Source: Phormidium tenue FACHB-1052
Lineage (GTDB): Bacteria; Cyanobacteriota; Cyanobacteriia; Phormidesmidales; Phormidesmidaceae
Length of the DNA: 64,000 nt
Assembly: GCF_014696675.1 (NCBI RefSeq)
Contig: NZ_JACJQN010000002.1
Location: forward strand, 248,001 to 312,000
Direction of reading: 5' to 3'
Shown here piece by piece: positions 28,931 through 48,980 of the stretch (position 1 is the stretch's first letter; each line of letters starts with the position of its first letter). The notes under the pieces were generated by a model, which saw nothing but the letters and a program-made list of their open reading frames with translations, did no database searches and was not told the origin of the DNA. The position numbers were made by a program, and so were the translations under genes.

Positions 28931-28940
28931 AAAACTGCGT

Positions 28941-29134: not shown

Positions 29135-29147
29135 GCGAGGTTTAGGT

Positions 29148-29747: not shown

Positions 29748-29883
29748 CGCCGCCAGAGAAAGGGGTCTCTGGTGTTCATTGAATTTGTCCTATTTTACAG
29801 GTGATGACGCTCAAAGCAATACACTAGATCTACTCGCAGGTAAGCTGTACTATGCTTCCAGTCATAGTCGAGGGTTAAACTCC

Positions 29884-30210: not shown

Positions 30211-30375
30211 AGGCTCGTAGGGTTGAGGCATACATGGTCAGACAGCTCCACCTCAAGGACTCACATTTTATGTATGCAAAGGCTGCACGCTAAACCACTG
30301 ACTCAAGGTTTAATCAGCATTCAAAAGCTGAAAGCTGAGGTGTTCCGCGTCTGGTGCTGGATACACCGGTCAAAC

Positions 30376-30819
30376 ATGGCACAGGTTCAGCCAGAAAACT
30401 TCGAGCCAGAGGTTCGTCGTTTATTTGGCGACCTAAGGTTGAAACACACCTGGGAAAAGGCATACAGTCACTTCTTTGTCAGCTGGGTTTTTGACTGTAT
30501 CTGCGACGGCGACACCTATTTTCAGGTCTTGGATCCTAAGGACTGGTATGACTGGGAATATGAACTACGTCTTTTGACCTTTCAAGCGTTAGCTGCACAT
30601 CCAAGATCTGAGTCCATGACAAGAAATTCGTACTCGTATATTGCTCGTTACGAAAGAGCGTCATTGGCGGATGGCTTTTTTGCTCTGGCTAAAGAGGCGG
30701 TCGAGCGTCAGCAGCAGTACTCAACCAGTAGTACCGTGGTGATACCACAGACTGATCCCCAACCGGATCAAGCCGCCCAGTCTTTACACAGGGTCTCCGC
30801 CTGCTGCAGCACCGTCTGA
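30376..30819 (+). CDS. hypothetical protein overlapping the hsdR 3' end (transposon cargo)
   Basis: 147 aa from ATG 30376 ([20 protein letters not shown]); a longer version from about 30223 is possible. Aromatic-rich middle ([45 protein letters not shown]). Its last 52 bp overlap the end of hsdR on the other strand, so the C-terminal tail may be a late extension. No known domain. Real-gene status is moderately supported by amino-acid composition only. Confidence 0.4.
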
Positions 30820-33800
30820 GTTGCCTTCTCCTGCTTATCAGGCGGATAGCCATACTTCTTCAGCAGCCGCTTCACCATCACCCGCAGCTTCGCCCGCACC
30901 GCTTCCCGCTCCGTCCAGTCAATCGTCACATTGCCGCGAATCGCCTTAACCAGCTCCTGGGCAATGGTCTTCAGCGTCTCATCCCCCAGCACCTGCACGG
31001 CGCTGTCGTTGACCTCTAGGGCATCGTAGAAGGCCAGCTCATCCTCGCTCAGGCCCAGGTCAATGCCTCGGCGGCTGGCCTCGCGCATGTCTTCTGCCAG
31101 GTTGATCAGTTCCTGTATCACCTCTGCTGAGGTGATTGTCCGGTTCTGGTAGCGGCGAATGGAGGCTTCCAGCATCTCCGAGAAGTTGCGCGACTGCACC
31201 ACGTTCTTACGAGAGCGGGCCTTGATTTCGTCATTCAGCAACTTGCGCAGCACCTCCAGGGCCAAGTTTTTCTGGGGCAGGTCGCGCACCTCGGCCAGAA
31301 ACTGGTCGGAGAGAATAGAGAGTTCGGGCTTGTCGAGGCCTGCGGTCTCGAAGATATCGATCACCTGCTCAGAGGCGACGGAGCGGGAAACAATCTGGCG
31401 CACGGCGGCGTCTAGCTCGGCCCGGCTCTTGCCCCCTTCGACGGTGTGCTTGCTCAGCCCCGCCTTCACCGCCTGAAAGAAGCCTACGTCTTCGCGGATG
31501 GCCAACGCCGCATCCTCGGCAGCGCAGAGGGCAAAGGCTTTGGAGAGTTCGGTCACGGCTTGAATGTAGCGCTGGGGGCCTTTCACATCTACTGATTCAG
31601 GGCGCAGCATCCAATCCATGGCATTGCGGAGGATGGTCAGACGCTGAGGCGGTGGAGCACTGTGGAAAGCGTGGTAGTCAAACCCGTGGAACTGGCCCGC
31701 TACGATTTCATACTTCTCCTGCATCAGCGTCAGGGCTTGATCCATGAGAATACCCGCCTGGCCTCGGTCGCGCTCGGTATAGGCTTGCAGAGCTTCTTGC
31801 AGGTCCGAGAATATACCAATGTAGTCGACTACCAGGCCCCCCTGCTTGTCACCGAAAACGCGGTTGACGCGGGCGATGGCCTGCATCAGGTTGTGGCCCT
31901 TCATGGGCTTATCTACATACATGGTGTGCAGGCAGGGGGCATCAAAGCCAGTGAGCCACATATCCCGCACTATCACCAACTTGAGCGGATCGTTAGGGTC
32001 GCGCAGTCGTTTAGCCAGGGCCTCTCGGGCTTTTTTGCTGCGGATATGAGGCTGAAAGTTTTCTGGGTCAGCTGCGCTGCCGGTCATCACCACTTTGATG
32101 GTCCCAGTGGCATCATCTTCGCTGTGCCACTTCGGGCGAAGAGCCACCAGCTGATTATAGAGGTCGGCGCAGATGCGGCGGCTCATACAGACGATTAGGC
32201 CTTTGCCGTCCATAGAGGCGAGGCGGTTCTCAAAGTGCTGCACGATATCGGCGGCTACTAGAGACAGTCGTTTTGGGGTGCCTACCATGGCTTCGAGCTG
32301 CGCCCACTTGCTCTTTAGCTTTGCCTGAGTAGTGGTCTCTTCCCCCTCGGTGACCTCCTCAAAGTCGGGGTCAATGTGGGGGCGTTCGTTATCATCTAGG
32401 TCGATTTTGGCCAGGCGGGCTTCGTAGTAGATCTTGACAGTGGCCCCGTCTTCGACGGCTCGCTGGATGTCGTAGATATCGATGTAGTTGCCAAAGATTT
32501 GCTTGGTGTTTTTGTCGGCGGCTTCGATGGGAGTGCCGGTAAAGCCGATGAAGGAGGCGTTGGGCAAGGCATCCCGTAGGTATTTTGCGAAGCCGTAGGC
32601 GGTGTAGGCTCCTTCTATGCCGGTCTCCTTGTCTTTGGTGGTCACCACACGGGCTTCGAGCCCATACTGGGAGCGGTGGGCCTCATCAGCGATGAAGACA
32701 ATGTTCCTGCGATTGGAGAGGGTTTCGTACTCGCCGCCCCGTTCCTCAGGGGCAAACTTCTGAATAGTGGTGAAGATAATGCCGCCGGAGGCTACCTGCA
32801 GCTTGGCTTGGAGGTCGGCCCGGCCTTCCGCCTGTTGGGGTGTCTGCCGCAGCAGGTCTTGGCATTTGGAGAAGGTGGTGTAGAGTTGGTCGTCCAGGTC
32901 GTTGCGGTCGGTGAGCACCACCAAGGTGGGGTTTGCCATGTCCGGATGCTGGATGATCTTTCCGGCATAGAACACCATAGAAAGACTTTTGCCAGACCCC
33001 TGGGTATGCCAGATCACCCCGGCTCGCTTGTCGCCCTCGACAGAGGTAGCGCGGATGGTGGCTTCTACGGCTTTGTTGACTGCGTAGTACTGGTGGTAGC
33101 CCGCCACCTTTTTGATGAGAGTTTCGCCGTCGCTCTCGAAGACGGTGAAGTAGCGAATCAAGTCGAGGTAGCGCTCGGGATGGAAGACACCCTTAAGAAG
33201 AACTTCGAGGGGATTAGTAGATTGAACAGAATAACTTCCTGCTTGTTCAGCAGTAACTGAGCGAAGTCTCTCGGGAGATGAAGCCACACTATCGGCTTCA
33301 CTCGGAGGATTGCGCCAGGGCATAAAGCGGTCTCGTCCGGAAGTGAGGGTGCCGACTTGGGCATTAATACCATCAGAGATGACGAGCCCCTGGTTATAGA
33401 TAAATAGGCTAGGGATGTCTCTTTTATAAGTCTGTAGTTGGTTGAATGCTTGATCAATATCGGCGTTCCCGTCAGCGGCATTTTTGAGTTCGATGACAGC
33501 GAGCGGAAGCCCATTTAGAAAAAGAACAATATCGGGGCGGCGGTCAGCATATTCGTGAACAGTAAACTGGTTGACAGCAAGCCAGTCGTTATTACTAGGT
33601 TGGCAGAAGTCGATAAGCCAAATCTGCTCGTGTACTAGACGTTCTTCATGCTGATAAGAGACAGACACTCCATCTATCAGAAGAGAATGAAATCGCCTAT
33701 TATTCTCAAAAAGATTTTGAGTCTCAGAGCGTAAAACTTTTTGTATAGCTTCGTCTAAGACAAGAGCTGGCACTTGCGGATTAAGCTTAGTGAGAGCGGA

Positions 33801-33956
33801 GCGGAGGCGACTTTCAAGAATGACTTCAGAGCGACTTTCACGCTCTACCATAAACTCTGAGGAGTCAAGATTTGAACCTTCAGTAATTGTGTAACCTAGT
33901 TGCTCAAGGTAATAAAGTGCAGATTCTTCAACATCAAATTCTGTGAGGCTTTTCAT
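30768..33956 (-). CDS. hsdR: type I restriction endonuclease subunit HsdR
   Basis: 1062 aa, full length. The N-terminal PD-(D/E)xK nuclease has D142 in [12 protein letters not shown] and E156-L-K158 in AVIELKNA. The SF2 motor has Walker [12 protein letters not shown] (about 310), [21 protein letters not shown] and the motif VI region [16 protein letters not shown]. The C-terminal helical domain binds the HsdM/HsdS core. It cuts unmethylated DNA after ATP-driven translocation. It is the last gene of hsdM-hsdS-X-hsdR, starting 2 nt after gene X. The first ~250 codons (33200-33956) are visibly AT-richer than the rest, pointing to mosaic origin. Confidence 0.93.
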
Positions 33957-33958
33957 GG

Positions 33959-35041
33959 CTAGCTACTTCCTCGGCCAGATAAGTCAGGCAGCAAGTTCTT
34001 GATTTCATTAATGGCATTGACAAAATCAGCTTTGCTAATTTGATCTTCCCCTAAAGGCACTTCACCAGAACCATCCAAGACCTCATAAAATAGCTCTAGG
34101 CAAACATCTCTCCCCCTTTTCTGCTTATAAAAACAAAGTTTTGGATTTCCGATGTCATCCAACCTGAAGTGGACAAAAGGAGTGACACAATAAATATCTT
34201 CTCCATGGATTGCTAGGACATTACGACTATTTAGATGATAGGAAACACTGTCCAACTTGTCTGGCATAATATCTTTTGCAGAAAAAGTCCTATTCAAGGA
34301 AGCTCCTTTAAAGTCTTCATGCCTAAACGACAAGATGGATTCTTCTTGTGAAACATAACGAGCTAAAGTAATACTACTTATCTCGCTAATACCTTGTAAT
34401 ATATTTAGCACATCACCTTGATACCTAGAAATGGTTTGTCGGCACTGCAAATCTGTTTTGGCAAACGAATGAGAAAATTCATTTCGAACGCGGTTTAATT
34501 CTCTCAGCTTGTCCACTACATCATTAGATATATAATTTAAGCATGGAAGAGGATGATTTTTATCAATAGCTAGAGTTATCAACTGCTCAATAATAGAAAG
34601 CCGATCATCTATTTTATTGGAAACAATTTGTTTTGGCTTAATTGCCGTTTCTGTCATTGAGAAGCGAAAATGCCTGTATTCACTAACAATTAATGCATAT
34701 AATAGATATATGATTGATTCCCAAGTATCTTGAAGAAGTTTGAGGCGCTGTTGTTGATTCTCATAACCTCGCTCAAACCTCTCAAAAACAAAAGCTATTG
34801 GAGTTGGAAACTTTGAATAAACAAACTCTTTGAACTTCTCAATAGCATCTTGCCTAAACTCTACAAGTGCTGTGTGATACCCGACAGGCTCAACTGTGAA
34901 CAATATGAAGCTAGGTCTGAACTGGTATCCTCCAATTGCCACATAACCGCCCTCTTGTTCATCGAATTCTTCGTTAAAATCGGAATTTTCCTCATAGCTT
35001 ATTGTTTCACTATTGTATTCAAACACCGGTGAAAAATCCAT
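33959..35041 (-). CDS. HEPN-motif protein in the type I R-M operon (candidate abortive-infection RNase)
   Basis: 360 aa, not recognised as a named family. The middle is helical and contains [18 protein letters not shown], with R186-N-x3-H191, the RNxxxH catalytic motif of HEPN RNases, in the right helical context. No Walker A or other NTPase motif is present, so it is not a standard PrrC. The N-terminus is acidic ([14 protein letters not shown]); the C-terminal third is beta-rich. It is translated between hsdS (11 nt) and hsdR (2 nt). E. coli prrC, encoding an anticodon nuclease silenced by its R-M complex, sits in the same place. Role is inference: an RNA-cutting back-up defence, or a structural HEPN accessory. 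Confidence 0.6.
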
Positions 35042-35052
35042 TTCCCAACCAC

Positions 35053-36316
35053 CTAGGCATAACCAGATAATAGCTTTGGAAGAAGAGCGTCTCGGATTTT
35101 CTGCAATTCCCCTTTTTCGTAAATGTTGGCCTCAATTTTATTTCTCAAAGGCTTGACTAATTTGCAGTAATTGTGGACGACTGAATCTGTTGGATTTAAT
35201 ATCTCAAATTCTTTAAATGCTGAGGAGCCTAGGTTTGGGAAGACAGAACCAGTTGTTTTGGCGAGCAGTCTCTCTAGCCCCAGTTCAATAGTTTGATTGA
35301 TAAAAATTTGATTATTAGCAAGCCCCCTAATAGCGCAGACTCCACGTCCCAAGCAGTAAATATCATCAGCTATAACGCGACGCCCAGTGGTCGAACCACG
35401 TACACAAAAAACTAAATCCCCTAATTGAGTTAAGCGAGTAGGTGCTGTCGTCCACTTTCGCTTAATTAAGAAGTAATCACCAAATTCCACTGGTCCGTTG
35501 ACAAGGGGTATCCCAATACCATCCTCGTTATATGTATCTCCTTTGGGGGAAGCCCCCATGATAACTTCAGCAAGGTCTCCTAACTTGCCTACCTTCCACC
35601 CCTTAGGAATTTCTCCCAAGTTCGAGTCCTCGAAGGAGTCGGGGAAGAGGGCAGCGGTTTCGGCATCCATATCTGCGGGTTGCCGACCATCGAGCTTGGC
35701 GCGAACAGGGCCGAAGTCGATGAACCAGGATTTAAAGAGGGCGCGGGCAATGCCTTCCAACGTCCGATTCATCTGCTGGTTGAGTGCGATCTTGTCATCG
35801 AGGGTGCCGAGAATATGGGCAATTTCCTTCTGCTCATCCAGTGGAGGGAGGGCAAATCTAAATGCTTTGATTCTGTCAGGAGATGTGTGTTTTACAGTCG
35901 TTCCTGTAGCACTTGCTAGAACTTCATGTCGATAGGGATGGCTACAGAGCAAGTAGTAAAGAAATTCTTTATGTAACGGAGCATCTGGATTAACCAAAAC
36001 TTTTCCAAGTCTTTGGTTATGGAGAAAATGAGAATTTGGAGAAGCCTTGGGAACTAAAGAAGGATAGCCCAATGTGTCTGATACTTTACTCAAATCTGTC
36101 ATTGTTACTAGCAGATCGCCCTCATCCAACACATAATCCTCAGGTACAGGGCCATCGTAATATTTCAATTTGTCACCCTTGAAACCTCCTCCAATGGCAA
36201 AATTTCCGGGAGTCAGCAAAATATCGCCAGGTGGTTCTTCCCTGAAGTACTCACCCTTGAAAGCAAATCCGTGAATAATGTCAATCAGATCTGCGAGTTG
36301 AGCTTCCTTCCAGTGG

Positions 36317-36327
<11 letters not shown>
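35053..36327 (-). CDS. hsdS: type I restriction-modification specificity subunit HsdS
   Basis: 424 aa with two target-recognition domains (about 1-150 and 235-380). Each is followed by a conserved helical spacer: [32 protein letters not shown] and [33 protein letters not shown]. It sets the bipartite DNA site methylated by HsdM and restricted with HsdR. The target sites cannot be read from sequence. Its start overlaps the hsdM stop by 11 nt. The two recognition domains are AT-rich while the central spacer is GC-rich, the usual sign of domain exchange. Confidence 0.9.
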
Positions 36328-37924
<1,597 letters not shown>

Positions 37925-38135
37925 TCACTCAATCCTTATCGCTGGTCGATCTAACCCACCATACTCCGTTGGCGAGGCAGGTATTTCCACTGATAGTTCC
38001 CGTTCTAGTTCCAAATACAGTCCCAGCTAACGAGTTCTTTATTTTTCAGCGAAAACTTTACCTGACTACAGAGCAACCAGGCAATTAACCAACCCTAATT
38101 CTTAAATTAACTAAGTGGCTGGGCATACTACAGAG

Positions 38136-38513
38136 CTAAATACTCATCGTATCCGACTCCATTTCCCGCTTGATTTCTTCCCAAAGCTCTGGCCTAGTAT
38201 CACGAAGGGCATCTGTGCTTGTCATGAGCAGAGATAAAAACACTGAAAGCTGCACTGCCTCAAGTCGCTTGTAGGTTTTCTCGGCCAGAGTCCTTGCTCT
38301 ATAAGCACACGCCCCTGAGTGAACCGTATACACAGTAGTCCAATCCAGGTCAGTGATAGGTACGCCATACACCTCTCGCCGAGACTGGATCCTGACCGGG
38401 TAAAGCGCTACAGCAAGGTCTGAGTCCTCAATGATCCCACCACAAGAGGAACACCTCAAAAATAGTTTTAGGTTGGCTGCGTCTCCATCCCATTCAACAA
38501 ATAATCTCAGCAT
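38136..38513 (-). CDS. hypothetical protein with CxxC motif (transposon cargo)
   Basis: 125 aa. It has a CSSCGG pair near residue 22 and a further Cys in HSGACAYRARTLAEK, so a small zinc site is possible. The C-terminal half is helical (KTYKRLEAVQLSVFLSLLMTSTDALRDTRPELWEEIKREME). No named domain. Divergent from the XRE gene across a short gap with a palindrome, so it is likely controlled by that regulator. Could be a partner, antirepressor or toxin; I cannot tell. Confidence 0.55.
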   Translation of the reverse strand: MLRLFVEWDGDAANLKLFLRCSSCGGIIEDSDLAVALYPVRIQSRREVYGVPITDLDWTTVYTVHSGACAYRARTLAEKTYKRLEAVQLSVFLSLLMTSTDALRDTRPELWEEIKREMESDTMSI

Positions 38514-38529
38514 TGGGCTAGATCCCTAC

Positions 38530-38552
38530 AAATATCCGATTTTGGGATATTT
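38530..38552. promoter_or_regulatory. operator candidate in divergent promoter of XRE gene
   Basis: AAATATCC and GGATATTT separated by 7 nt, within the 65-bp gap between the divergent 125-aa gene and the XRE gene. A two-fold symmetric site here is typical for an autoregulating HTH protein. Confidence 0.55.
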
Positions 38553-38578
38553 TAACCGCTGATTGTAGCTTGCTCGTC

Positions 38579-38818
38579 ATGAGCAGCTCAGTCTATTCAC
38601 TTCGTTACCAACAGTTCCTCGCTCGGCTGAAAGCTGCCCGCCTAGATGCCAACCTCACCCAGCAGCAGGTTGCTGCCCGCCTCAGCGTCCCTCAGTCCTT
38701 CATTTCCAAGTGCGAGTCCGGCGAGCGACGCGTCGACGTCATCGAGCTCCTTGAGTTTGCGTCCATCTACAACAAGCCTCTCGTGTACTTCGTAGACTTC
38801 GAAAGCCCCTCTGGATAA
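38579..38818 (+). CDS. XRE-family HTH transcriptional regulator
   Basis: 79 aa from ATG 38579; a TTG three codons upstream is possible. Nearly all of it is one HTH domain: RYQQFLARLKAARLDANLTQQQVAARLSVPQSFISKCESGERRVDVIELLEFASIYNKPL, as in SinR/Cro-like single-domain repressors. It probably binds as a dimer to the palindrome just upstream (38530-38552). It lies between the R-M operon and the tns operon and could control the divergent 125-aa gene, the downstream 104-aa gene, or both. Such regulators also time R-M expression after transfer (C proteins). Confidence 0.85.
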   Translation: MSSSVYSLRYQQFLARLKAARLDANLTQQQVAARLSVPQSFISKCESGERRVDVIELLEFASIYNKPLVYFVDFESPSG

Positions 38819-38902
38819 GGCTTTAGAAAGCCGAGTGAGTTTTGAAGTTGAACTGCCCCCAGAAAATTGAGTACCCTTGTATCAAGTAACTAGAGGTATC
38901 CC

Positions 38903-39217
38903 ATGGTGGCAGAAGAGCTTGAGGATGTCATGAATCGCTTAGTCGATCAGCTTTCAGAATTTTGCTCGCAAGGTCAGATCAACGAAGCCCAAGAGCTCAT
39001 TGAAAGCTTTTGTACCAGGTTGGCTGAAGACACGGCTAGTTGGCAAGGCAATGACGTAGGCTATGTGCCGACCCTATTTGACTGGGAACCTCAGCCATAC
39101 CGCTTCATACCTGGAGAACCAGTAGACCCTACCAAATTCGATACATCTAATATCGTGAGCATATTAGATCCAAACTTCCATCCCCATCACCCCAGCTCCC
39201 AAAATCCCCCTAGGTAA
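38903..39217 (+). CDS. hypothetical protein downstream of XRE gene (transposon cargo)
   Basis: 104 aa with AGAGGT before ATG 38903. The N-terminal half is an acidic helix (EELEDVMNRLVDQLSEFCSQGQINEAQELIESFCTRLAEDTASW); the C-terminal half is Pro-rich and probably disordered. No named domain. It is 84 bp behind the XRE gene and may share its transcript. Confidence 0.5.
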   Translation: MVAEELEDVMNRLVDQLSEFCSQGQINEAQELIESFCTRLAEDTASWQGNDVGYVPTLFDWEPQPYRFIPGEPVDPTKFDTSNIVSILDPNFHPHHPSSQNPPR

Positions 39218-39289
39218 ACCCTTCGACCATTTATGCAGAATTACGGCTGCAAAAGAGGCTGCGCAGGTGCACGAGCTATCACAGCTTTC

Positions 39290-40690
39290 TTAGAAGTCAC
39301 CAGAATCAGAGAAATGCATCGATTTTTGTGCAGCCTTAAGGGTACTTCGAACAACCTCATAGCGTAAAAACCCAGGATGAGCCATGAGTGATGCCACTCG
39401 AGCTTCCGATGGATATTGGTTTGTTTTTTGTAGTTTGGTAACGATTTGCCTTACATCCTCACAAGAGGCTTTTATATTTTCCTCCTTTGCCTTCCGCCGG
39501 TAGGCTCTGTAGCGATTCGATATCTCATGACTTAGCTCTGGCAAGTGCCTCAATATCGTTCTTCTATCTTGCTTAAGCTGCCGAGCGACCTCCTCCAAGG
39601 AGGGAAAAGGGCCAGTTTCAATGGATAACAACGCCCGAAGGTGCTTTTCGACTGTAACTCTAGGAAAACTTCTTGGATTCTGTCTAGAAGTTTTATGCTC
39701 TTGGAATATTGTTGATTTCAGCACAGTACGTGGTGGAAACTTTAAATCCTCATCGCAGAAAAGATTTAGAGGACTGACTCCTAATTTGTGGCAAATGTCT
39801 AATACGGATCTGAGAGTAGGATTATTTTCGCCATTACACCAAAGCCAAAGAGTATTTCTAGGTAATCCTAATTGTCTTGCCATCTCTGCAATATTACCGT
39901 CAGCAAAATGACTAACAGCATTCGATAATCCTTTAGCCAACTTTTTCCTAGAAGGTTTGAGCACGCTACTGTCAGCAGCCAAAATTTCACCCACAGAGTT
40001 TGAGATCCAAAGCTGTCGACTTAACTGTCTATCATCTCGACATCCCTCTTCTATGATAAGTTGACTCTGCTCTAGGCCCAACCACGACGAGCAGTGAGAG
40101 CAATACCCTGGTCGACCCTGCCAAGTCAAAAAAATGCTTGATTTACTACAGGTATTACAGTTTTCTTGTAGATAAAGACGATGCCTATTGCAAACCTTGA
40201 CAGCTTCAACTGTCCAGAGCAACGCTTCATAAACTTCAAGCCCTCGGTTTCTAAGTTCTTGCAAACAGCAAGGACACCAAACTCTGTGGGATCGCAAGAG
40301 ATTTCTTGTAGTAAGAACCTCAGCCCAAGGTACTAAGGTGATTCTGGAAAGAGCATCTCGATGCGTAAGGTTTTCTAAACAGAAAATCAAGTCTTGAGCC
40401 ATAGTGCCCGGCCCATTTATAGCAGCAGTATAGTTATAAATTTTGTGCAGCGTTGCACTTCCATGCTCTTTCCCTAGCATAGGTTGCACTAGCTTCTCAA
40501 GCAATGCTCCTGCAGGTACACAATGAGCCATAGCTAAACGGCATATGAAGCTAGTTAGATTTTCTGCGTAGGCAGTATCAATACCTTTAGGAAGAATATG
40601 GTAGAGCCTACTCATAGGTTTTGAGGCTAGACCTATCGCCATTGAGTCTAGGTCCAAACTCACGTTTAAGTTTGATGTGGGCGAAGACAT
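39290..40690 (-). CDS. TnsD/TniQ-family target-selection protein 2
   Basis: 466 aa. The N-terminal TniQ domain begins SRLYHILPKGIDTAYAENLTSFICRLAMAHCVPAG. A zinc array follows with C139-C142, C167-H170, C178-C181 and C197-C200. A helix-turn-helix region (IAEMARQLGLPRNTLWLWCNGENNPTLRSVLDICHKLGVSP) and C-terminal helical DNA-binding-like repeats (SLEEVARQLKQDRRTILRHLP) complete it. The size matches Tn7 TnsD rather than the short TniQ that pairs with Cascade. It is a paralogue of the gene at 40703-42277 with the same zinc spacing. TnsD proteins bind a chromosomal site and recruit TnsC. Last gene of the tns operon, 12 nt after its paralogue. Confidence 0.88.
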   Translation of the reverse strand: MSSPTSNLNVSLDLDSMAIGLASKPMSRLYHILPKGIDTAYAENLTSFICRLAMAHCVPAGALLEKLVQPMLGKEHGSATLHKIYNYTAAINGPGTMAQDLIFCLENLTHRDALSRITLVPWAEVLTTRNLLRSHRVWCPCCLQELRNRGLEVYEALLWTVEAVKVCNRHRLYLQENCNTCSKSSIFLTWQGRPGYCSHCSSWLGLEQSQLIIEEGCRDDRQLSRQLWISNSVGEILAADSSVLKPSRKKLAKGLSNAVSHFADGNIAEMARQLGLPRNTLWLWCNGENNPTLRSVLDICHKLGVSPLNLFCDEDLKFPPRTVLKSTIFQEHKTSRQNPRSFPRVTVEKHLRALLSIETGPFPSLEEVARQLKQDRRTILRHLPELSHEISNRYRAYRRKAKEENIKASCEDVRQIVTKLQKTNQYPSEARVASLMAHPGFLRYEVVRSTLKAAQKSMHFSDSGDF

Positions 40691-40702
40691 TACGACAACA
40701 CC

Positions 40703-42277
40703 TCAAACCCACTCATTATCTTGAAGAAACTGCTCAAGCTTTTCTCGAGGTTCAACTTGCAAAATTGCTCTAGGAGTATTTAGATAGGGTGCTATACGAC
40801 TAGGGGTGGGTCTAACACCTTTGCTATGAAGAGATTGAGCAATTTGCTTCATCTCTTCAAAAAGTTTCTCCACCCTCTTGTCTTTCTTTTGTGTTCTAAA
40901 CTGGAAATAATTATTAGATACCTGTCTACAAAGTTTTTTTTCATAGCTTTTCAGTGTATGTGAATCTATACCTGACTCACTAGCGACATCTTCCAAAGGC
41001 TTCGGAGGATATTCATTTAAAGCCCTTTCTAATATTTCTCGAATATGCTCTGACTGCTTTTCGTTCAAAAATTCTTTGTGCTTTTTAGCTATTTCTTTGC
41101 ACGTCTCAGAATCATAGTGATAAAGGATTGAGCTTGTACGGTACTTCAATCGGGCTGCAATATCATTAACTGATGGAGGCGGATTTTCTAAAAGCGCCAT
41201 CTTCAACACTGATGTGGCTAATTTTTGCTTTTGAGTAACTCGCCGAGAGGATACATGAATAGTAGATTTCTTGTTTGCATGTTTTTGAGTCTCGACTACC
41301 CGATAGTTTTTCTCAATAGCCTCGGTATCAACAGTCTCAAATAAGGTGGGAAAGTCAATTTTAAGCTTGTAGCAGATATTTATCATTGAACCTAACGTTG
41401 GAGTACTATGGCCTTTACGCCATCTCTCAACCTGAGTAATGCTGGTTCCTAAAACTTGAGCTAGATACGAAAATTTGCCACTTGACACACCTTCTACAAA
41501 GTGACACAAATGATTTGCAATGAAAAATCTAATCTTGTCTGTAAATTGATCAGGTGGAATACAAAATAAATCATTAACACATTTAATGCAGTGAAGTTGT
41601 TCTTCACTTTCAACGGCTTTGGGTCTTAACTCAAGCGATGTAGATATGTAAGCACTTGCTCCTAGCCACTCCCGGCATTTCGAGCAAAATCCTGGTCTGC
41701 TATGCCATGAAAGGGGTCTATTTGTTTTTTGACAATGAGGACAAACATTGGAAAGAGGAATCTTGTGCTTAGAACATAATTTAAGTACGTCTAAACTCCA
41801 ATTAAGGGGCTCATACAAGACACTAGAATTGTCAAGTAGTTCTTCAAAACAGATAGAACACCAGGCTCTTTGCTGCTTTAACAGATTCTTAAGAGGGATA
41901 GCCTTTTGCCAGCTCAGCAAAGTTAGTTGAGATAGATCTGTTCTACAAGTAAGCTCCTCAACAGCATTAACCATTCCAGAAGCCCAATCACCAAACCCAT
42001 TAACCGCACGAGTTTGATTCGCAAATATTTTATCTAACCCTCCTGCACGAGACTCTCCGAGAGAACTATATTCAGGTTTTACTAAAGGAGCAATTTCTCT
42101 CATCACCAAAAGCCCTGTAGGCACACAATGTGCTTCAGACAACCTTGAAATATAGCTAATTAAGCTTTCGACGTTTGGAAGGCCGCAGCCAATAGGTTGT
42201 ATTGAATAGAGCCTGCTAACTTGCTGGTTCTGATTAATGCCAGTGCTACTAATAGAGTTAGTGTTATTCATCAACAT
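40703..42277 (-). CDS. TnsD/TniQ-family target-selection protein 1
   Basis: 524 aa, close to Tn7 TnsD (508 aa). The TniQ N-terminus is SRLYSIQPIGCGLPNVESLISYISRLSEAHCVPTG. Zinc ligands are C140-C143, C168-H171, C179-C182 and C198-C201. An HTH (YLAQVLGTSITQVERWRKGHSTPTLGSMINICYKLKID) and two further DNA-binding-like helical repeats (VNDIAARLKYRTSSILYHY; LEDVASESGIDSHTLKSY) follow. It should recognise a fixed attachment site, plausibly the tRNA-Ala 3' region 36 bp from the left end, and deliver TnsC. Its start overlaps the tnsC stop by 14 nt. Confidence 0.9.
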   Translation of the reverse strand: MLMNNTNSISSTGINQNQQVSRLYSIQPIGCGLPNVESLISYISRLSEAHCVPTGLLVMREIAPLVKPEYSSLGESRAGGLDKIFANQTRAVNGFGDWASGMVNAVEELTCRTDLSQLTLLSWQKAIPLKNLLKQQRAWCSICFEELLDNSSVLYEPLNWSLDVLKLCSKHKIPLSNVCPHCQKTNRPLSWHSRPGFCSKCREWLGASAYISTSLELRPKAVESEEQLHCIKCVNDLFCIPPDQFTDKIRFFIANHLCHFVEGVSSGKFSYLAQVLGTSITQVERWRKGHSTPTLGSMINICYKLKIDFPTLFETVDTEAIEKNYRVVETQKHANKKSTIHVSSRRVTQKQKLATSVLKMALLENPPPSVNDIAARLKYRTSSILYHYDSETCKEIAKKHKEFLNEKQSEHIREILERALNEYPPKPLEDVASESGIDSHTLKSYEKKLCRQVSNNYFQFRTQKKDKRVEKLFEEMKQIAQSLHSKGVRPTPSRIAPYLNTPRAILQVEPREKLEQFLQDNEWV

Positions 42278-43406
42278 GACTCTTTCTACGAACTGGATTT
42301 GGAGTTCCTACCCTTCTGCCTCTCTTACTGGGCGTAGACTTTTTTTCAGGTTCTTTGGTGAACTTCTCGTCTAATTCTAAAAGTTCTCTAAGTCTATCAA
42401 CTTTTGATGGAGACTCTTCCATCGACTGCTCACCTTCAATAATTTCAATAGCAATTTTCTGACATTGATCGACTGTTAAAGCTGTATTTTCTAAGTGAGT
42501 TTTTGTGATTTTCTCGCTTCCTTCATCCAAGGCATAATTTAATGCTCTACTAAGCCAATCCTTTAATATACCAACGCACCCCAGTGATCTCTCATAACAA
42601 TATTTCCACTCAGAATCCAAATCATTTTCTTGAGCCATAGGCATAAAAAGAAAACCTAAAGAGTGGAGAACTTTTCGGAAATTTTTTTTATCGCTTTCGA
42701 AGTTTGCCGTATAACGTGAAAAATGAACTTCTTGATTCCTTCTACTTAGCTGAGCACTAAGGTTGCGCATCATTAAAAGTTCATAGGTTCCTATTAAAAC
42801 ATGAGGAATTTTAGTTATATTTGCAATGGACTTTAAACAGTCCATATTATCTTGCAGTCGCCTGCCGCTAGACATCTTCTGAATGTGCTGCGCTTCATCT
42901 AAGATAACCGCGTAAGGCTGACGATGCCATAAAGCGTTTTCTTGGGCATGGCGTAGTCTGTTTGTTGATGTAGTAGGCTTAACTTTTATTTTCCCATTTG
43001 CGTCTCTATAAATTTCTTGAGTTGAATAGTCAATCTTATAGTCAATTAATGGCTCTTCCATTTTTATAAGAGCACGATAGTAATAATCTTTCCAATCAAA
43101 AATCCCTGAAGATGGGGAGGCTGCTTCTAGTGAAACAACAGGTATTCTTCCTGGATGAAAATTCTTATCTTCAAGAGATCTCTTAAATAGCATTTCTTCA
43201 ATTTGTGGTATTAAAGTAGACTTTCCAACTCCTGTAGGTCCGATCACGGTGATAATTGAAGATTGAGAGCTCGGATTAATTATTAATTTGTAAACCTTCT
43301 GGGCAACTTCTGACAACTTTACATGGTTCACTATGACGCCTTGAAAATATCGACTTCTTTCAACCTTGTCAGCTTTTAGCAAGTCTTCAGGAAACAGTCG
43401 GGTCAT
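42264..43406 (-). CDS. tnsC: TnsC, AAA+ transposition regulator
   Basis: 380 aa AAA+ ATPase. Walker A is G56-PTGVGKST64, Walker B YAVILDEAQHI (D170-E171), and sensor 1 lies near IPHVLIGTYELL. Family members form ATP-dependent filaments on target DNA, bridge the target selector (TnsD/TniQ) and the transposase, and enforce target immunity. The C-terminal tail is Lys/Arg-rich (PSKRGRRVGTPNPVRRKSHVDE). The start is 2 nt after the tnsAB stop, so translation is coupled. Size is nearer to the TnsC of Tn7-like elements with TnsAB fusions than to the small type V-K TnsC. Confidence 0.93.
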   Translation of the reverse strand: MTRLFPEDLLKADKVERSRYFQGVIVNHVKLSEVAQKVYKLIINPSSQSSIITVIGPTGVGKSTLIPQIEEMLFKRSLEDKNFHPGRIPVVSLEAASPSSGIFDWKDYYYRALIKMEEPLIDYKIDYSTQEIYRDANGKIKVKPTTSTNRLRHAQENALWHRQPYAVILDEAQHIQKMSSGRRLQDNMDCLKSIANITKIPHVLIGTYELLMMRNLSAQLSRRNQEVHFSRYTANFESDKKNFRKVLHSLGFLFMPMAQENDLDSEWKYCYERSLGCVGILKDWLSRALNYALDEGSEKITKTHLENTALTVDQCQKIAIEIIEGEQSMEESPSKVDRLRELLELDEKFTKEPEKKSTPSKRGRRVGTPNPVRRKSHVDE

Positions 43407-43408
43407 AT

Positions 43409-46108
43409 CTAAATAAGCTCCAAAGGTTGAAATATATAAGAGTCGTCATCATCTTGAATTTCTTCTTTTTTGTCCTTATTGTACATATCTAGCGTTTTTT
43501 CATCAGAAGATTCATCACTTTTTTCAACTTCAATAAATCCATTAAAATCTTTTTCTGAATCTTCTGAAATTCGTTGGCTTTCTAAGTCTTTGAGCCGCTG
43601 CTTTAAAAAAGCTTCTTCGGCTTCAATCTTTTTCAAGAAGTTGCCAATTGCTGAAGCATTAAGCTTCAGTTTTTTATTACTTCTTTCATTTCTCTTTTGA
43701 CACTCAGCCGAAACCATTTGTATTTCTTTCTCTGACCTACCTTTGAAGATGCTGTAAAGCTCGCTTCTACATTCAACCCATCGACCTTTCAAGAATGCAT
43801 AAGCTATGCCTCTATCGAATGGATCATATCGAACGTCTACATCTGCTCCTTCTAATTCAGGATCTCTAAAGTCGTTAGCCCAGTAGTAAATATTTTGAAT
43901 CCGAATACCTCTACTTGTTCGGACTCTTGCAGTGCCTTTTCTTGGCCCAGGCATGGTGATAATTTTCAAATTTCGGTCGTACACTATAAATTTGTGATCT
44001 CTAGAGCCAAATTTTGCTACGCCATTTTGCCATGCCTCTTGAGGAGTTATTCCAAGAGCACTATGAAAATTCGCATCGTAAACTTCGTATGCCCAGATGC
44101 TTAAACAGGTATACAGATCGCCTAAATTCCACGTGGATAGATCTTTAGGATTATTAGATTTTGTAGTTACTCTAACGTCTTTCGTGATTTGAGTATTTCC
44201 AGATAAGTTATAAATTAGCTGTCTAGAGCAAGTGCCAAATAAACGTTCACACACCGAGCCAAATCGTGATTTTGACGGTGGCCTATACTTGATTGTAGAA
44301 CCCAGATAAATTAGGAGAGTTTCATAATAAATACTATGAAATTCAGCACCATTGTCAGTAACAATGATCTGAGGCAAACGTCCGTGCCTTTGAATGCAAA
44401 CTCTAATTACCATCATGCAGGAGCGGTATGATGGTGAATCGAAAGTTATATAAAGAGCAAGAAATCTCCTTGTATTAGCATCTGTTAAAATTGTGAGCCA
44501 TGGTTTACCCAGGTTCTTTCCTGTGCTAGAGCATCTGAGTTCTATATCTAATTCTGTATGGTCTATGTGGCCAATCTCAAGTGGCCTATCTCCATGACTG
44601 GGCACGTTGAATTCTAGTTTATACTGAAACTCTTGATGCTTGTACGCTGCTTTATGTCCTCTTCTTTTCATTTCTTGTTCATAAATAGGTCTTTTTTTAA
44701 CTTCTTTAGAAAAAGTCTTATAGCTTGGAATATCATCAATAGAAAATCCTTTCTCTTTACATGCATGAATGAAACAACTATAGGCACTCATAATTGTCGA
44801 TTGCTTAGAGTTTTCATACACTTGAGCAATAATCTGTCCCATTAAATCTATTTTTTCTTCAAGTATTTTTCTTGTTCTATTTCCTTTTTTGTGATTTTTC
44901 GGGAGTAGGCCTATAAGCCCTACTCCACACTTTTTTTCAGCCAGCTTAAAGCTCCTCTTCCATTTTCTTATTGTCTCTGTTGCGCAATTCCCTTCGATAT
45001 TTCCTTGAATACAGTTAAAACGCATGTTAGCTATTGCTAAGTCACCCTTGCTTGCTCTAGACAAGCACTCGAAAATCTCACTTTTACTAGATATTTCTGA
45101 TTGAGAATTTAATGATTTAATCTTTCCTTGAGTAATTAACAACTCAATTTCTGAGATTTTGTGTTCAAGGAATTGTTGGTTTTCATCCATAAGAACTATA
45201 TTCTCAGAACCAACAAAACGAATGGCTAGCTCTTTATTCTCATAGAGTAATGTTTCTCCTGGCTGAAGCTTTACCTGAGAAAACTGGGCTGTTTGGAAGC
45301 TGTTCATTGAGTCAATACTTATTCTGTAAGCTATTGATACTTCCTTATTGGAAAAAAGAAGGCATTTTTCAGATTCCACTAATGGCGCAACACTTAGATC
45401 TATATATATTTCTCTTTGGGCGATTAAGGAATAAATTAGATCCTTGAGAAAATTGTTTTTATGGCTGAATACTTCAGCCAGGCTTATGCCAGGATTCCCG
45501 GAAATTAATGATATTAGAAGCTCTTTTTCTTCTCTTCTATCTGCTTGATCACTGGAGAAATAGTCATCAAGAAAAATTAAATTCCTGTAAAGAATCCAAT
45601 CGATCTCTGAGTCTGACCAAACATGAAAATCCAACCCCTTTTTTGTTGCGTATTCTTCACCTGGCGCAAAATGCCATTTCTGCTCATCTCCGAAGTAATA
45701 CCGTTTTGGGTTTTTTGAGTGAAGTTTCTCTAGATCTTTTTCGGTCTTGCATTCAATCCAACCTGCACAGTCACTCCAAAGTACAAAAAAATCTGGAGTT
45801 CCCAAGTAAACTACTTTCTTACCTTGACTGGTTTCGGAAGAGAACTTGATCTGATTTGGCTGATCGTAATACTCTAAAACGCTGTCGTCGTATTCTAATT
45901 TATAAATTACCGGCAATTCGTTTTTATGAGATTCAAATTGGATTGAGACACCCATCTTTCGACTTGGATATTGCCCGCATACATTTTTATAACCGCCTCC
46001 AACCTTTCGAGATGGTTGGGATGCTCTGATTTTACTTATCTCTTCTTTTGCCTCGACTGAGAGCTTGATACGGCTGCACCAAGAATTAAATCCTAGCTCA
46101 GTTAACAT
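43409..46108 (-). CDS. tnsAB: TnsA-TnsB fusion transposase
   Basis: 899 aa single polypeptide. The N-terminal ~185 residues are TnsA: restriction-enzyme-like E59 (IQFES), D106 (GTPDF) and E119-C-K121, which in Tn7 cuts the 5' ends. The rest is TnsB: a helical DNA-binding region (about 330-480), then the RNase H-like DDE core with D516 (GHIDHTELD), D585 (VTDNGAEF) and E621 (VCERLFGT), which does 3' cutting and strand transfer. The D585-E621 spacing of 36 residues is typical. An acidic C-terminal tail probably contacts TnsC. With TnsA present, the element should move by cut-and-paste. First gene of the operon, nearest the right end. AT-rich relative to host. Confidence 0.94.
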   Translation of the reverse strand: MLTELGFNSWCSRIKLSVEAKEEISKIRASQPSRKVGGGYKNVCGQYPSRKMGVSIQFESHKNELPVIYKLEYDDSVLEYYDQPNQIKFSSETSQGKKVVYLGTPDFFVLWSDCAGWIECKTEKDLEKLHSKNPKRYYFGDEQKWHFAPGEEYATKKGLDFHVWSDSEIDWILYRNLIFLDDYFSSDQADRREEKELLISLISGNPGISLAEVFSHKNNFLKDLIYSLIAQREIYIDLSVAPLVESEKCLLFSNKEVSIAYRISIDSMNSFQTAQFSQVKLQPGETLLYENKELAIRFVGSENIVLMDENQQFLEHKISEIELLITQGKIKSLNSQSEISSKSEIFECLSRASKGDLAIANMRFNCIQGNIEGNCATETIRKWKRSFKLAEKKCGVGLIGLLPKNHKKGNRTRKILEEKIDLMGQIIAQVYENSKQSTIMSAYSCFIHACKEKGFSIDDIPSYKTFSKEVKKRPIYEQEMKRRGHKAAYKHQEFQYKLEFNVPSHGDRPLEIGHIDHTELDIELRCSSTGKNLGKPWLTILTDANTRRFLALYITFDSPSYRSCMMVIRVCIQRHGRLPQIIVTDNGAEFHSIYYETLLIYLGSTIKYRPPSKSRFGSVCERLFGTCSRQLIYNLSGNTQITKDVRVTTKSNNPKDLSTWNLGDLYTCLSIWAYEVYDANFHSALGITPQEAWQNGVAKFGSRDHKFIVYDRNLKIITMPGPRKGTARVRTSRGIRIQNIYYWANDFRDPELEGADVDVRYDPFDRGIAYAFLKGRWVECRSELYSIFKGRSEKEIQMVSAECQKRNERSNKKLKLNASAIGNFLKKIEAEEAFLKQRLKDLESQRISEDSEKDFNGFIEVEKSDESSDEKTLDMYNKDKKEEIQDDDDSYIFQPLELI

Positions 46109-47125
46109 GATTTTCCCTACTCGGTATCAGGGGAGATTAGTCGATAAAAAGCTACTTGTCAATCTTTTTGGAGTTATGTAAACGACCTTTTTTAGCCAAG
46201 ATCGCAAAGTTATACAATCGTGTATATACGATTGTATAACTTTGTCCTTAAAAGCCATTTTTTGACCGATTAAAAAGTTGATTTTTTCAATTCTTCAAAA
46301 GTAAAATGTTTTTCTTTTTCAGATTTATGTGTGTTGGGAGATTTCAATAGGAAATTCAAATTAATATGTAATTTGCCATGCTTGGCTTAATCTGATTGTC
46401 TGATACATTGTTTGCACGCTTCTAGCAGCAATGTTAAAGATGTGAAGCATTAGATCTGGATAATTAGAAGTAGTCATAATTGCCGAGCTTCTAAACGTTT
46501 ACAGTCAGAGCTAATCTGTAGGTTGGTAGTAAACAGCGTTTTATGGGATGGAACAACCACTATTCCCTCATAACTACACCCTTGTGCTATTCCAGGGCTA
46601 CATTGAGTAGCTCAGTTTTCACGCTAGTAAGAATTAATTTGCTTATGGAGGACATTGATTAGATAGACATACCTCCTAGGGGCGATAGATGATGGCAACG
46701 ACGGCAATAAAGTCGAGCCGCTTTAATGCCAGGGCAGAGGTGCTAATAAGTGCTTCGAGGTAAAAACTAATCTCGAATTTAGAAAGAATTTTTTGACTTT
46801 AAACTTCGATCTGTATTGCTAGGAAGTAGGCGTCTCATCAGTGATGACGTCTACGCTGCTTAACACTTCTGACATTGGCTAGCACGAGATTGTAGCGCTA
46901 GGTGCTTTTATGCCACCCAAAGCGTGAACGGCTCGCAGAGTTGGGCTTTGCCCTGAGGTGACCACAGTGACCGTATCTTTGTCGAGTGTTGCCAGAGCCA
47001 TACATCAAATCTGTCGAAGCAGTTTCTAAACCGAATGGAGCAGTGATGGAATTGACTGAGTACAATTACTCACCATCAAGCCAAGATTGAGAACTTGGAT
47101 AGAGAAGAGTCCTTCTAAATTCTCG
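46109..47125. other. ~1-kb non-coding region between tnsAB and the right-end repeats
   Basis: No convincing gene, CRISPR repeat or known RNA seen. It holds the tnsAB promoter, the 40-bp inverted repeat at 46205-46244, and a more GC-rich patch at about 46860-47010 that contains a 40-codon minus-strand frame (46879-47001) of doubtful meaning. This is long for a Tn7 right end and may hold a regulatory RNA or a decayed gene. Confidence 0.5.
46205..46244. promoter_or_regulatory. 17+17-bp inverted repeat upstream of tnsAB
   Basis: CAAAGTTATACAATCGT, then GTATAT, then the exact complement. AT-rich, so not a terminator. It lies 97-136 bp upstream of the tnsAB ATG. Likely an operator for a regulator of transposition, or a dimeric recombinase/partition-type site. 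Confidence 0.6.
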
Positions 47126-47142
47126 GTACGCTTATGCTTCCA
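47126..47142 (+). repeat. subterminal repeat, right end, copy 1
   Basis: GGTACGCTTATGCTTCC, identical to the left-end copies. Candidate TnsB site. Confidence 0.85.
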
Positions 47143-47155
47143 AATTAAACTATCG

Positions 47156-47172
47156 GTACGCTTATGCTTCCA
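47156..47172 (+). repeat. subterminal repeat, right end, copy 2
   Basis: Exact copy, 30 bp after the first. A diverged copy (CTTATGGTTCC at 47230-47240) and the terminal repeat follow, giving about four sites as in Tn7 right ends. Confidence 0.85.
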
Positions 47173-47252
47173 GGAGGCATTGAATTCTTGACGGTGTTAC
47201 AATGCTTTCAGCGCTCTCTAGGACCCACTTATGGTTCCATGCGCGGCGCAGT

Positions 47253-47269
47253 TATGAGTAAACCCACAG
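47253..47269 (-). repeat. right terminal inverted repeat of the Tn7-like element
   Basis: TTATGAGTAAACCCACA; its complement matches the left terminus at 15 of 17 positions. It ends in the ACA expected for Tn7-family right ends. Confidence 0.9.
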
Positions 47270-47274
47270 CAGCG
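47270..47274. repeat. target-site duplication, right copy (GCAGC)
   Basis: Identical to 28880-28884. Fixes the element boundary to the base. Confidence 0.93.
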
Positions 47275-47375
47275 AGCCCTATAAATTGGGCGCGCCGAGG
47301 ATCACAGTGGCAGAACTCTTTATCGCTGCCGATACTAAAAACTAAGGCTAGAACATTACTACCGCAGAGCAATCC

Positions 47376-47411
47376 AAAGAAAAGGGATCGGCGGACGTTC
47401 CACCGATCCCT
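47376..47411 (-). terminator. terminator of the envelope beta-barrel-like gene
   Basis: On the minus strand, AGGGATCGG...CCGATCCCT with one internal mismatch and a 3-nt loop is followed by TTTTCTTT. It begins 34 bp after the stop at 47445. Confidence 0.8.
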
Positions 47412-47444
47412 CTATTGCTGGTTCAGAGCAGGAGGTCTAGTAAC

Positions 47445-47924
47445 CTAGAATGCGTAGCCTAGACCGACAGAGCCATTGACTTGGGTGTTGTCATAGAACG
47501 ACACGTTGACACCACCATTGGCTACGATGCGCTCGGTGATGCGGTAGTCAACCCCACCGGTAAGCATGGGACCAACCTGGGTAGAGCCTTCGGTAGAAAC
47601 CGACAGGCCAGCGCCAACGTAGGGCAGTATACGACCGTTGTCGGTAATGGCGTTGAAGTCGTAGGTCACGGGCAACAGGAAGACGGTTTCACCATCGTCG
47701 CCATTGAAGTCGAGGTCGCTGATGACACCGGGGCGCACTGAGATGTTGTCGGCTACAGTAACCTTGCTGTTGATAGAGAGGCCAATATCGTCACTGATGC
47801 CGACGCCTGCGCCGATGTAGTTGAGGTCAGTGCTGGCATTCTGGGCATTAGCGGCCATGGGAAGGGCAGCCATAGAAGCAGCGGTAAGACTCAAGGCGAT
47901 CGCAGCGATAGAACGGGTTTTCAT
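47445..47924 (-). CDS. small secreted beta-barrel-like envelope protein
   Basis: 159 aa from ATG 47924, which has GGAGA six bases upstream; a longer frame to 48071 lacks support. Signal peptide MKTRSIAAIALSLTAASMAALPMAANA. The mature protein alternates polar and hydrophobic residues with repeated GxG turns (NYIGAGVGISDDIGLSINSKVTVADNISVRPG ... SFYDNTQVNGSVGLGYAF). It ends in an aromatic residue, as outer-membrane beta-barrels do. It resembles small OmpA/opacity-like barrels; the exact family is uncertain. It flanks the right end of the transposon (176 bp away). Confidence 0.65.
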   Translation of the reverse strand: MKTRSIAAIALSLTAASMAALPMAANAQNASTDLNYIGAGVGISDDIGLSINSKVTVADNISVRPGVISDLDFNGDDGETVFLLPVTYDFNAITDNGRILPYVGAGLSVSTEGSTQVGPMLTGGVDYRITERIVANGGVNVSFYDNTQVNGSVGLGYAF

Positions 47925-48348
47925 GGTCATTCTCCAAATGCAAACTGTGTGTTGTTGACGGTCTTTTGTTGAGAAGCCCACCCAAAACGGCCAATGCGAT
48001 GTATGAGTCGATGCCATTAGGTCGGGATGGGTCTGGCAGAGAAGCAGTTGTCTTCGCTTTCGCCATGACACTGTTGTAGCGCTAGGGGCTAGGCACCCCT
48101 TAGCGAGGCCATGACACTTTATGGAGTGGGTGACACTGGCCTAACAGTCGAGGAGACCTCGCTAGTAAGCAGAATCCTTTTATTCACAAGCATTTTCAGC
48201 TTTAGAACCAGCAAAAATGAGCACTCAAGCCTTTGCCCCACTCGTCTCAATTAAGGGGATATGGCAGGCAGACCGTCCAACTGGCACACTCAACTGGCAT
48301 AGCTTCCTGGGCGCTGGGCGCTGGGCAATTTAGCCACCGATCGCACAC

Positions 48349-48366
48349 TTACATAGACAAATCTAT
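48349..48366 (+). repeat. direct repeat, copy 1
   Basis: TTACATAGACAAATCTAT, repeated exactly at 48440-48457 (91 bp apart). Similarity extends on both sides (CGCACAC versus TGCACAGC before; TAG and an ATT-rich stretch after). Possible regulator binding sites. Confidence 0.6.
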
Positions 48367-48439
48367 CTAGATTCAATTGACTGAGATAGTCCTGGAGCGA
48401 TTGAAGCACTGGTCAACTTGTTTGGCAGCCTGCACAGCT

Positions 48440-48457
48440 TTACATAGACAAATCTAT
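48440..48457 (+). repeat. direct repeat, copy 2
   Basis: Exact copy of 48349-48366 in the same orientation. Confidence 0.6.
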
Positions 48458-48980
48458 ATAGTTTTAATCGAGTTAATCATCGTTGACCGACCTTGAAGCA
48501 GGGGCTAGATCGCTGGCTCAAAGGCAGATGATTTGGACGCACTAACTTTTAGATTTGCTTAAAAGTTTTGCGGTTTCATCGCGGTATAAAAAAACCATAA
48601 AGTGGGCACACTCAAAAGACGCAATCGCGCTCTTTGAACCCCTAAAAATACGGATTAAAACCTTTGAAAACTAGCATTCCACAATTAATTTTAGGTATGT
48701 ACCTAGGTATTTTCTAGGATCTCAGCCGTGAAGTAAATGTCTCTAGACAACTAAAGCCTCAAACTTTGAGGGCGCACTAGACAGTTCATTTCGTTATTTT
48801 TTTTTTGCGGCAAGCCTTGCGACTACAACCCAGCCAGGTTCTCCCATTGGGCTCTGATGGCGTTGCAGTAGTGATACCCGTCTATTTCAACTCCATCTGC
48901 CTTGACTCTGTGCCCTAGGGGCAGCAAAGTTCAAGCTATATGGCCTTTTTAGGTTTCTTAGCTCCCTCACCTCTGAGTTT

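Follow-up and report, generated by a model that had tools for sequence, protein, structure and literature searches.

The window considered here is a 64,000-nucleotide stretch of Phormidium tenue FACHB-1052 (GCF_014696675.1, contig NZ_JACJQN010000002.1:248,001-312,000), and all coordinates below are positions in it. It contains a complete Tn7-like transposon of 18,384 base pairs (bp) at 28885-47268, flanked by the 5-bp target-site duplication (TSD) GCAGC and starting 36 bp beyond the 3' end of a transfer RNA gene, tRNA-Ala(GGC). Alongside its transposition genes stand two tandem genes for TnsD-like target selectors, tniQ1 and tniQ2, and it is the division of labour between these two proteins that concerns us most. 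Open reading frames were listed at a minimum of 80 amino acids (aa) for 30000-50000 and of 100 aa for 20000-30000. Labels of the form G### or L### denote genomes, loci or elements of relatives; G007, G006 and G019 are sister elements from the same genus. PmcCAST refers to the type I-B2 CRISPR-associated transposon (CAST; CRISPR, clustered regularly interspaced short palindromic repeats) Tn7744, and E to the expectation value. The features that define the element and its machinery are as follows:

28776-28848, forward strand: tRNA-Ala(GGC), the chromosomal attachment site (ARAGORN); the same tRNA adjoins the element in G007, G006 and G019
28880-28884, no strand: left copy of the TSD, GCAGC, 5 bp
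28885-28902, no strand: left terminal inverted repeat TGTGCGTTTACCCATAAG, matching the right end at 15 of 18 positions
28905-28958, no strand: two internal left-end repeats GGTACGCTTATGCTTCC, probable transposase-binding sites
39290-40690, reverse strand: tniQ2, TnsD-like, 466 aa, probable tRNA-homing selector (Pfam TniQ; PmcCAST TnsD 8v32_J; fold; Ala clade)
40703-42277, reverse strand: tniQ1, second TnsD-like selector, 524 aa (Pfam TniQ; 8v32_J; fold; a clade of its own)
42264-43406, reverse strand: tnsC, AAA+ regulator (Pfam AAA_22/TniB; PmcCAST TnsC 8fcu_Q, E 1.7e-93)
43409-46108, reverse strand: tnsAB, fused TnsA nuclease and TnsB transposase (Pfam TnsA_N, TnsA_C, rve, Mu-transpos_C)
47116-47172, no strand: two internal right-end repeats
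47251-47268, no strand: right terminal inverted repeat
47269-47273, no strand: right copy of the TSD, GCAGC

Terminal inverted repeats of the form TGT..ACA together with a 5-bp TSD bound this element and likewise G007 and G019. The paired GGTACGCTTATGCTTCC repeats have the same orientation at both ends and occur in four copies only, genome-wide; those at the left end point opposite to the terminal repeat, and the layout in relatives is, by eye, similar. All four tns genes lie on one strand as an operon in the order tnsAB, tnsC, tniQ1, tniQ2, with tniQ1 overlapping the end of tnsC and 12 nucleotides separating it from tniQ2. The fused tnsAB is one reading frame of 899 aa, in which the TnsA_C and rve matches fall slightly below the Pfam cut-off.

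A preliminary description of this stretch had proposed two tandem full-size TnsD/TniQ proteins that share eight zinc ligands, a helix-turn-helix (HTH) and C-terminal DNA-binding-like units, and all of this is borne out. Both frames are intact, and their products are the sole matches to TniQ (PF06527) in the 5.82-Mb genome, each above the curated cut-off. The ligands are spaced identically in the two proteins: C139/C142/C167/H170/C178/C181/C197/C200 of TniQ2 are invariant across 18 sequences, and C140/C143/C168/H171/C179/C182/C198/C201 of TniQ1 are invariant in 14, but for C140, conserved in at least 90%. A Cro/C1-type HTH lies in the middle of each protein; the one in TniQ2 (266-307) barely exceeds the Pfam cut-off, and the one in TniQ1 (271-317) stays below it (E 0.012). 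AlphaFold models of the two proteins (predicted local distance difference test, pLDDT, 74.5 and 81.1; predicted template modelling score, pTM, 0.55 and 0.56) place further HTH units on long C-terminal helices; the helix lists, as read here, give TniQ1 three such units and TniQ2 two.

In both sequence and fold the best match of either protein is the PmcCAST TnsD, 8v32_J, with E 1.6e-94 over residues 26-456 and Foldseek 2.1e-29 for TniQ2, and E 4.1e-72 in two stretches and Foldseek 1.6e-23 for TniQ1. Residues 358-397 of PmcTnsD align to TniQ1 twice, once in its first stretch (19-401) and again in its second (419-504). Unit 1 of TniQ2 is similar both to a TniQ1 slice containing unit 1 (z 7.7) and to one containing unit 2 (z 12.6); these two scores are not fully independent, as the slices share the 18 residues 405-422. 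Scores for the comparisons T1u1-T1u2, T1u2-T1u3 and T2u1-T2u2 were discarded because the slices overlap. Measured against three sister elements, tniQ1 has a ratio of nonsynonymous to synonymous substitution (dN/dS) of 0.21-0.24; the value for tniQ2, compared with two such elements, is 0.17-0.20. Both genes are thus under purifying selection, and neither appears dead. In the sister G006, TniQ1 has lost about one HTH unit by an in-frame deletion as well as one zinc-ligand cysteine.

To place the two proteins we drew on 388 searched genomes of the class, 34 of which gave matches, and on a scan of named genomes that yielded 33 loci, partly from genomes already among those matches; 14 of the 33, hand-listed as duplicates, fragments or near-identical copies, were left out. 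The final TniQ tree has 90 rows and an earlier one 61. Two split fragments were omitted from the earlier tree, and P_L115b, T1_G085_part and any row shorter than 230 aa from the final one. TniQ2 belongs to a clade of 21 rows (support 99/99 in the 90-row tree), of which 16 adjoin tRNA-Ala (15 GGC, 1 TGC). For the other five (L121, L129, L130, G149a and G293b) no tRNA is within reach, and they seem to be next to a contig end or the ends of other transposons; G149a and G293b stand, by eye, next to further transposon-end repeats, and the ends beside L121 and L129 may be V-K-like. All five loci of the PmcTnsD clade adjoin tRNA-Val, one of them (L134) carrying the PmcCAST proteins themselves, and the TniQ2s of tRNA-Leu(GAG) and tRNA-Leu(TAG) elements form separate clades of their own. 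The site of G355 is, by eye, an intron-bearing tRNA-Leu. This agreement between TniQ2 clade and tRNA means that TniQ2 fits the homing role, and position and phylogeny together make it a probable tRNA-homing TnsD.

The sister elements G007, G019 and G006 begin 30-33 bp beyond the same tRNA-Ala, the right end of G006 not having been found. The TSDs are ATAGT in G007 and GCGCA in G019 (the latter read across two contigs), both different from that of the window, and these are therefore independent insertions 30-36 bp past one tRNA. Among 21 loci of the genus, six (G012, G003, G022, G016, G023 and G011) retain the empty site, the right-flank gene coming straight after the tRNA, and the element occupies the window and three others; at the remaining loci there is other sequence, or no right flank in the stretch examined.

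The absence of CRISPR-Cas, also proposed in the preliminary description, likewise holds for the proteins, repeats and models searched. Pfam, NCBIfam and PADLOC found no cas gene among the scanned element proteins, the 20 largest repeat families, out of at least 60, included no CRISPR-like array, and models for Cas6 (PF10040 and PF09559), Cas1 (PF01867) and Cas7/DevR (PF01905) had no match genome-wide. PF10040 was the first Cas6 model used, and PF09559 was added after the Cas6 of G372 proved to belong to it; as a positive control, PF09559 detects a Cas6 in G372 and in G355, next to the TnsD gene in each, and the short TniQs of these two group with PmcTniQ. The Cascade genes, CRISPR array and short Cascade-binding TniQ that characterize type I-B2/I-D CASTs were not found in the element, and in the 90-row tree the 524-aa TniQ1 lies apart from the PmcTniQ clade.

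TniQ1 tells a different story from TniQ2 in that its phylogeny does not track the tRNA. Its clade (12 rows, support 100/98 in the 90-row tree) includes both Ala- and Leu-homing elements: seven adjoin tRNA-Ala (window, G007, G006, G019, G293a, G181 and L133) and two tRNA-Leu(GAG) (G231a and G057), so that nine of the 12 stand at the tRNA that matches their TniQ2, while G207 lies within a kinase gene, L121 by the end of another element and L130 at a contig end. Approximately unbiased (AU) tests speak for exchange of partners: the TniQ2s of L121, L133, L124 and L131 form one clade and their TniQ1s do not (p 0.0009), and the Leu TniQ2s refuse grouping with the TniQ2s of those Ala elements whose TniQ1s are sisters to theirs (p 0.001). 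Within the genus, the TniQ1 tree rejects the grouping of window, G007 and G019 that TnsAB favours (p 0.001). Between window and G007, tniQ1 has a synonymous divergence (dS) of 1.01 [0.79-1.31], as compared to 0.57 for tnsAB, 0.46 for tnsC and 0.49 for tniQ2, and in three of the six sister pairs (window-G007, window-G019 and G007-G019) tniQ1 shows about twice the dS of its operon neighbours. Its dN/dS is near 0.2, and the gene is therefore not simply relaxed; exchanged, older tniQ1 alleles would fit the divergence better than relaxed selection. On the evidence of these trees, elements have exchanged tniQ1 separately from tniQ2 and, in this genus, separately from tnsAB as well.

One member of the TniQ1 clade, the dual element G207, sits away from any tRNA, inside a conserved chromosomal kinase gene that is interrupted by the element end at about residue 424 (the kinase domain is matched). 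The kinase was matched in 54 of 60 genomes searched, G207 included, and its closest orthologues are open frames of about 500-540 aa. As for plasmids and phages, which the preliminary description suggested as targets of the second protein, 25 plasmid records matched, and six long plasmid-borne TniQs were placed in the trees; all fall outside the TniQ1 clade, and a plasmid-targeting link for TniQ1 was therefore dropped as evidence. No relative was found among the phage records or viral contigs searched.

Several single-TniQ or short-TniQ relatives came to light in the same searches. The plasmid elements at L117:9687-15633 (5.9 kb, TniQ of 530 aa) and L119:10202-15309 (5.1 kb, TniQ of 414 aa) consist of TnsAB, TnsC and one TniQ between identical 18-bp terminal repeats with 5-bp TSDs, with no tRNA annotated nearby, and L119 sits among CRISPR genes (cas10, Cmr/Csx-type). 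Calothrix sp. NIES-4101 carries three tns operons with a single TniQ1-like gene on one chromosome (L126, L127 and L128), and in one of these tnsAB is truncated. A search for the ends of the Calothrix single-TniQ copies L126, L128 and L145 gave none that a TSD convincingly supported. In G086, G162, G175, G066 and G319 a TnsD is accompanied by a short TniQ (248-308 aa), and these short proteins form a clade of their own.

We consider it probable that this is an intact-looking Tn7-like element in which TniQ2 homes to tRNA-Ala and TniQ1 is a separately swapped, second protein-only selector. With its fused TnsAB, PmcTnsC-like TnsC, terminal inverted repeats with TSD, and a TnsD that, as judged by position and clade agreement, probably directs insertion beside a tRNA gene, this cut-and-paste element belongs to the TnsAB-fused, tRNA-homing branch from which the I-B2 and I-D CASTs also arose, here in a CRISPR-free form. 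By analogy to PmcCAST TnsD, TniQ2 would read the tRNA-Ala(GGC) gene and recruit TnsC and TnsAB, with insertion landing about 30-36 bp beyond the tRNA 3' end, as the observed positions have it. TniQ1 shares the TniQ core and would read DNA with three C-terminal HTH units, if the models count them correctly, as compared to two. It may serve a second pathway to non-tRNA targets, occupying the slot held by TniQ with Cascade in the CAST relatives, and its separate exchange is what one would expect of a swappable target module.

A number of observations weigh against this interpretation. The AlphaFold models were built on alignments of 14 (TniQ1) and 18 (TniQ2) sequences and have a pTM of about 0.55, and the Val clade does not take in one Val-homing element, G372. 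The groups for the AU tests were chosen after an earlier tree had been seen, the reverse AU test on TnsAB gives only p 0.075, and TnsC favours neither grouping. Two of the three comparisons with G006 show tniQ1 no more diverged than tnsAB (G007-G006: tniQ1 0.59, tnsAB 1.01), a reversal that does match the conflict between the TniQ1 and TnsAB trees. G207 is a single case with one end only on its contig and no TSD that could be checked, and it could be an untargeted insertion. Neither a common second target nor a recurrent non-tRNA site was found among the 12 TniQ1-clade loci, and the plasmids and phages searched yielded no copy of the TniQ1 clade. Lastly, a union of the window's TniQ1 group with four Cascade-binding TniQs is not strictly rejected (AU p 0.076).

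Going further, and with the probability clearly on the low side, we speculate that a second target class is chosen by TniQ1 as a re-programmable selector made of protein only, its specificity altered by swaps of whole alleles and by the addition or deletion of HTH units, three being predicted in the window and one deleted in frame in G006. It would then be a modular counterpart of RNA-guided targeting.

Alternatively, TniQ1 might drive relaxed or untargeted insertion without reading any specific site, as the kinase-gene insertion of G207 and the TSD-flanked, non-tRNA sites of the small plasmid relatives L117 and L119 might suggest. Tn5469, which has one TniQ, is described as apparently untargeted in a review (PMC11406308). 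We regard this alternative as unlikely, given that the predicted HTH units of TniQ1 are under purifying selection, which suggests sequence reading, and that the plasmid TniQs lie outside its clade. Tolypothrix PCC 7601/7712 and Microchaete diplosiphon are presumably Fremyella, the host of Tn5469.

The preliminary description had also raised a TnsD heterodimer; TniQ1 and TniQ2 would then act jointly, here at the tRNA site. That the genes are operon neighbours and that most TniQ1-clade loci are at tRNA sites would suit such an arrangement, but the same TniQ2 clade adjoins tRNA-Ala in company with a short TniQ of another clade in G086, G162 and G175, and in L132 without a TniQ1 between tnsC and tniQ2 (its contig ends upstream), and by the AU tests the partners have been exchanged; an obligate pairing is disfavoured, and joint action in general strikes us as quite unlikely.

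Rather more doubtful still is TniQ1 as an adaptor for a partner acting in trans, whether cas genes elsewhere or another selector, in the manner of a short TniQ. The AU result of 0.076 and the 61-row tree, where the short TniQ from other dual loci was sister to it (91/81), lean that way; the 90-row tree does not recover this sister relationship. The outcome that the preliminary description named as contradicting it, a firm place among Cascade-binding TniQ, did not appear, as the best trees put TniQ1 elsewhere. Against an adaptor stand the lack of any match to the Cas models in this genome, the long C-terminus that TniQ1 retains, unlike short TniQ, and the absence of PF09559 Cas6 from eight of the nine searched genomes with TniQ1-clade elements, the exception being G231, where it lies on another contig than the two dual elements. 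The preliminary reading of both proteins as site-binding TnsD survives insofar as sequence and models make both full-size and DNA-reading; its suggestion of two fixed homing sites, with TniQ1 sharing the domain plan of tRNA-homing TnsD and serving a second chromosomal site, is highly improbable, since no such site recurs in the TniQ1 clade and tniQ1 is more variable than tniQ2 between window and sisters, which would be unexpected for a fixed-site reader.

The cargo of the element is a type I restriction-modification system, followed by three small genes beside tniQ2:

30768-33956, reverse strand: HsdR, type I restriction (PADLOC REase_I, E 0)
33959-35041, reverse strand: 360-aa protein between hsdS and hsdR, without Pfam, NCBIfam or PADLOC match
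35053-36327, reverse strand: HsdS (PADLOC Specificity_I)
36317-37924, reverse strand: HsdM (PADLOC MTase_I)
38136-38513, reverse strand: orf125, common to sisters G007 and G006
38570-38818, forward strand: 82-aa Xre-type HTH protein (HTH_3), common to sisters G007 and G006
38903-39217, forward strand: orf104, common to sisters G007 and G006

The trio of orf125, Xre-type gene and orf104 (38136-39217) recurs in G007 and G006, the G019 contig stopping short of it, and had no match in the remaining loci searched. In G007 (L009 and L010) and G006 (L011 and L012), remnants of hsdM and hsdR lie on either side of unrelated genes; the cargo there has therefore been replaced, which suggests cargo exchange between conserved edges in sister elements. 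The cargo in this genus sits between tniQ2 and the tRNA, unlike in those other loci that have a tRNA no more than a few hundred bases from tniQ2. A near-perfect 40-bp palindrome upstream of tnsAB (46205-46244) is a possible operator of the tns operon; G019 keeps one with matching changes on both arms, and the search pattern gave none in G007 or G006. Near the left end there is also a perfect 46-nucleotide inverted repeat without spacer (29090-29135).

Among known systems PmcCAST shares the TnsAB fusion, TnsC, the tRNA-homing TnsD fold and a second TniQ-domain protein, and its own TnsD and TniQ (8fcu_P) turned up next to tRNA-Val(TAC) in L134 (Peltigera membranacea cyanobiont 210A). The element described here differs in having no cas genes, in its site at tRNA-Ala(GGC), and in a second protein that is a 524-aa, TnsD-like, predicted DNA reader as compared to a 329-aa Cascade adaptor. 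Tn7 TnsD has the TniQ core in common and, by the published account, also reads DNA with its C-terminus and homes downstream of a conserved gene; the fold match to it is weak (8glw_Y, residues 1-318, E 0.17 and 0.054), and its target is glmS rather than a tRNA.

The two-tnsD tandem architecture is already published: Faure et al. (2023, PMC10293859) count 1,048 tandem tniQ/tnsD loci, two-tnsD tandems included, and describe the second protein as usually substantially smaller and the dual loci as having arisen through in-place duplication, few having distantly related partners. The present locus likewise has tandem TniQ-domain genes; by comparison, both its proteins are long, with extended C-terminal DNA-binding-like regions, and tniQ1 shows partner exchange. 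The review cited above (PMC11406308) gives tRNA sites, TniQ partner swaps and unstudied non-CRISPR targeting for the TnsAB-fused branch, and the non-CRISPR cyanobacterial I-B2/I-D relatives it treats have the TnsAB fusion, tRNA attachment sites and TniQ partner exchange in common with this element. The division of labour between the two selectors is clearer here than in the available portions of either text.

In the I-B2/I-D branch one can see how transposition came to make use of CRISPR systems. That takeover would find a natural comparison in a sister group that lacks CRISPR and whose second TniQ slot holds a putative DNA-reading protein exchanged apart from the homing protein, and the target of TniQ1, if found, could offer a protein-only means of directing large insertions.

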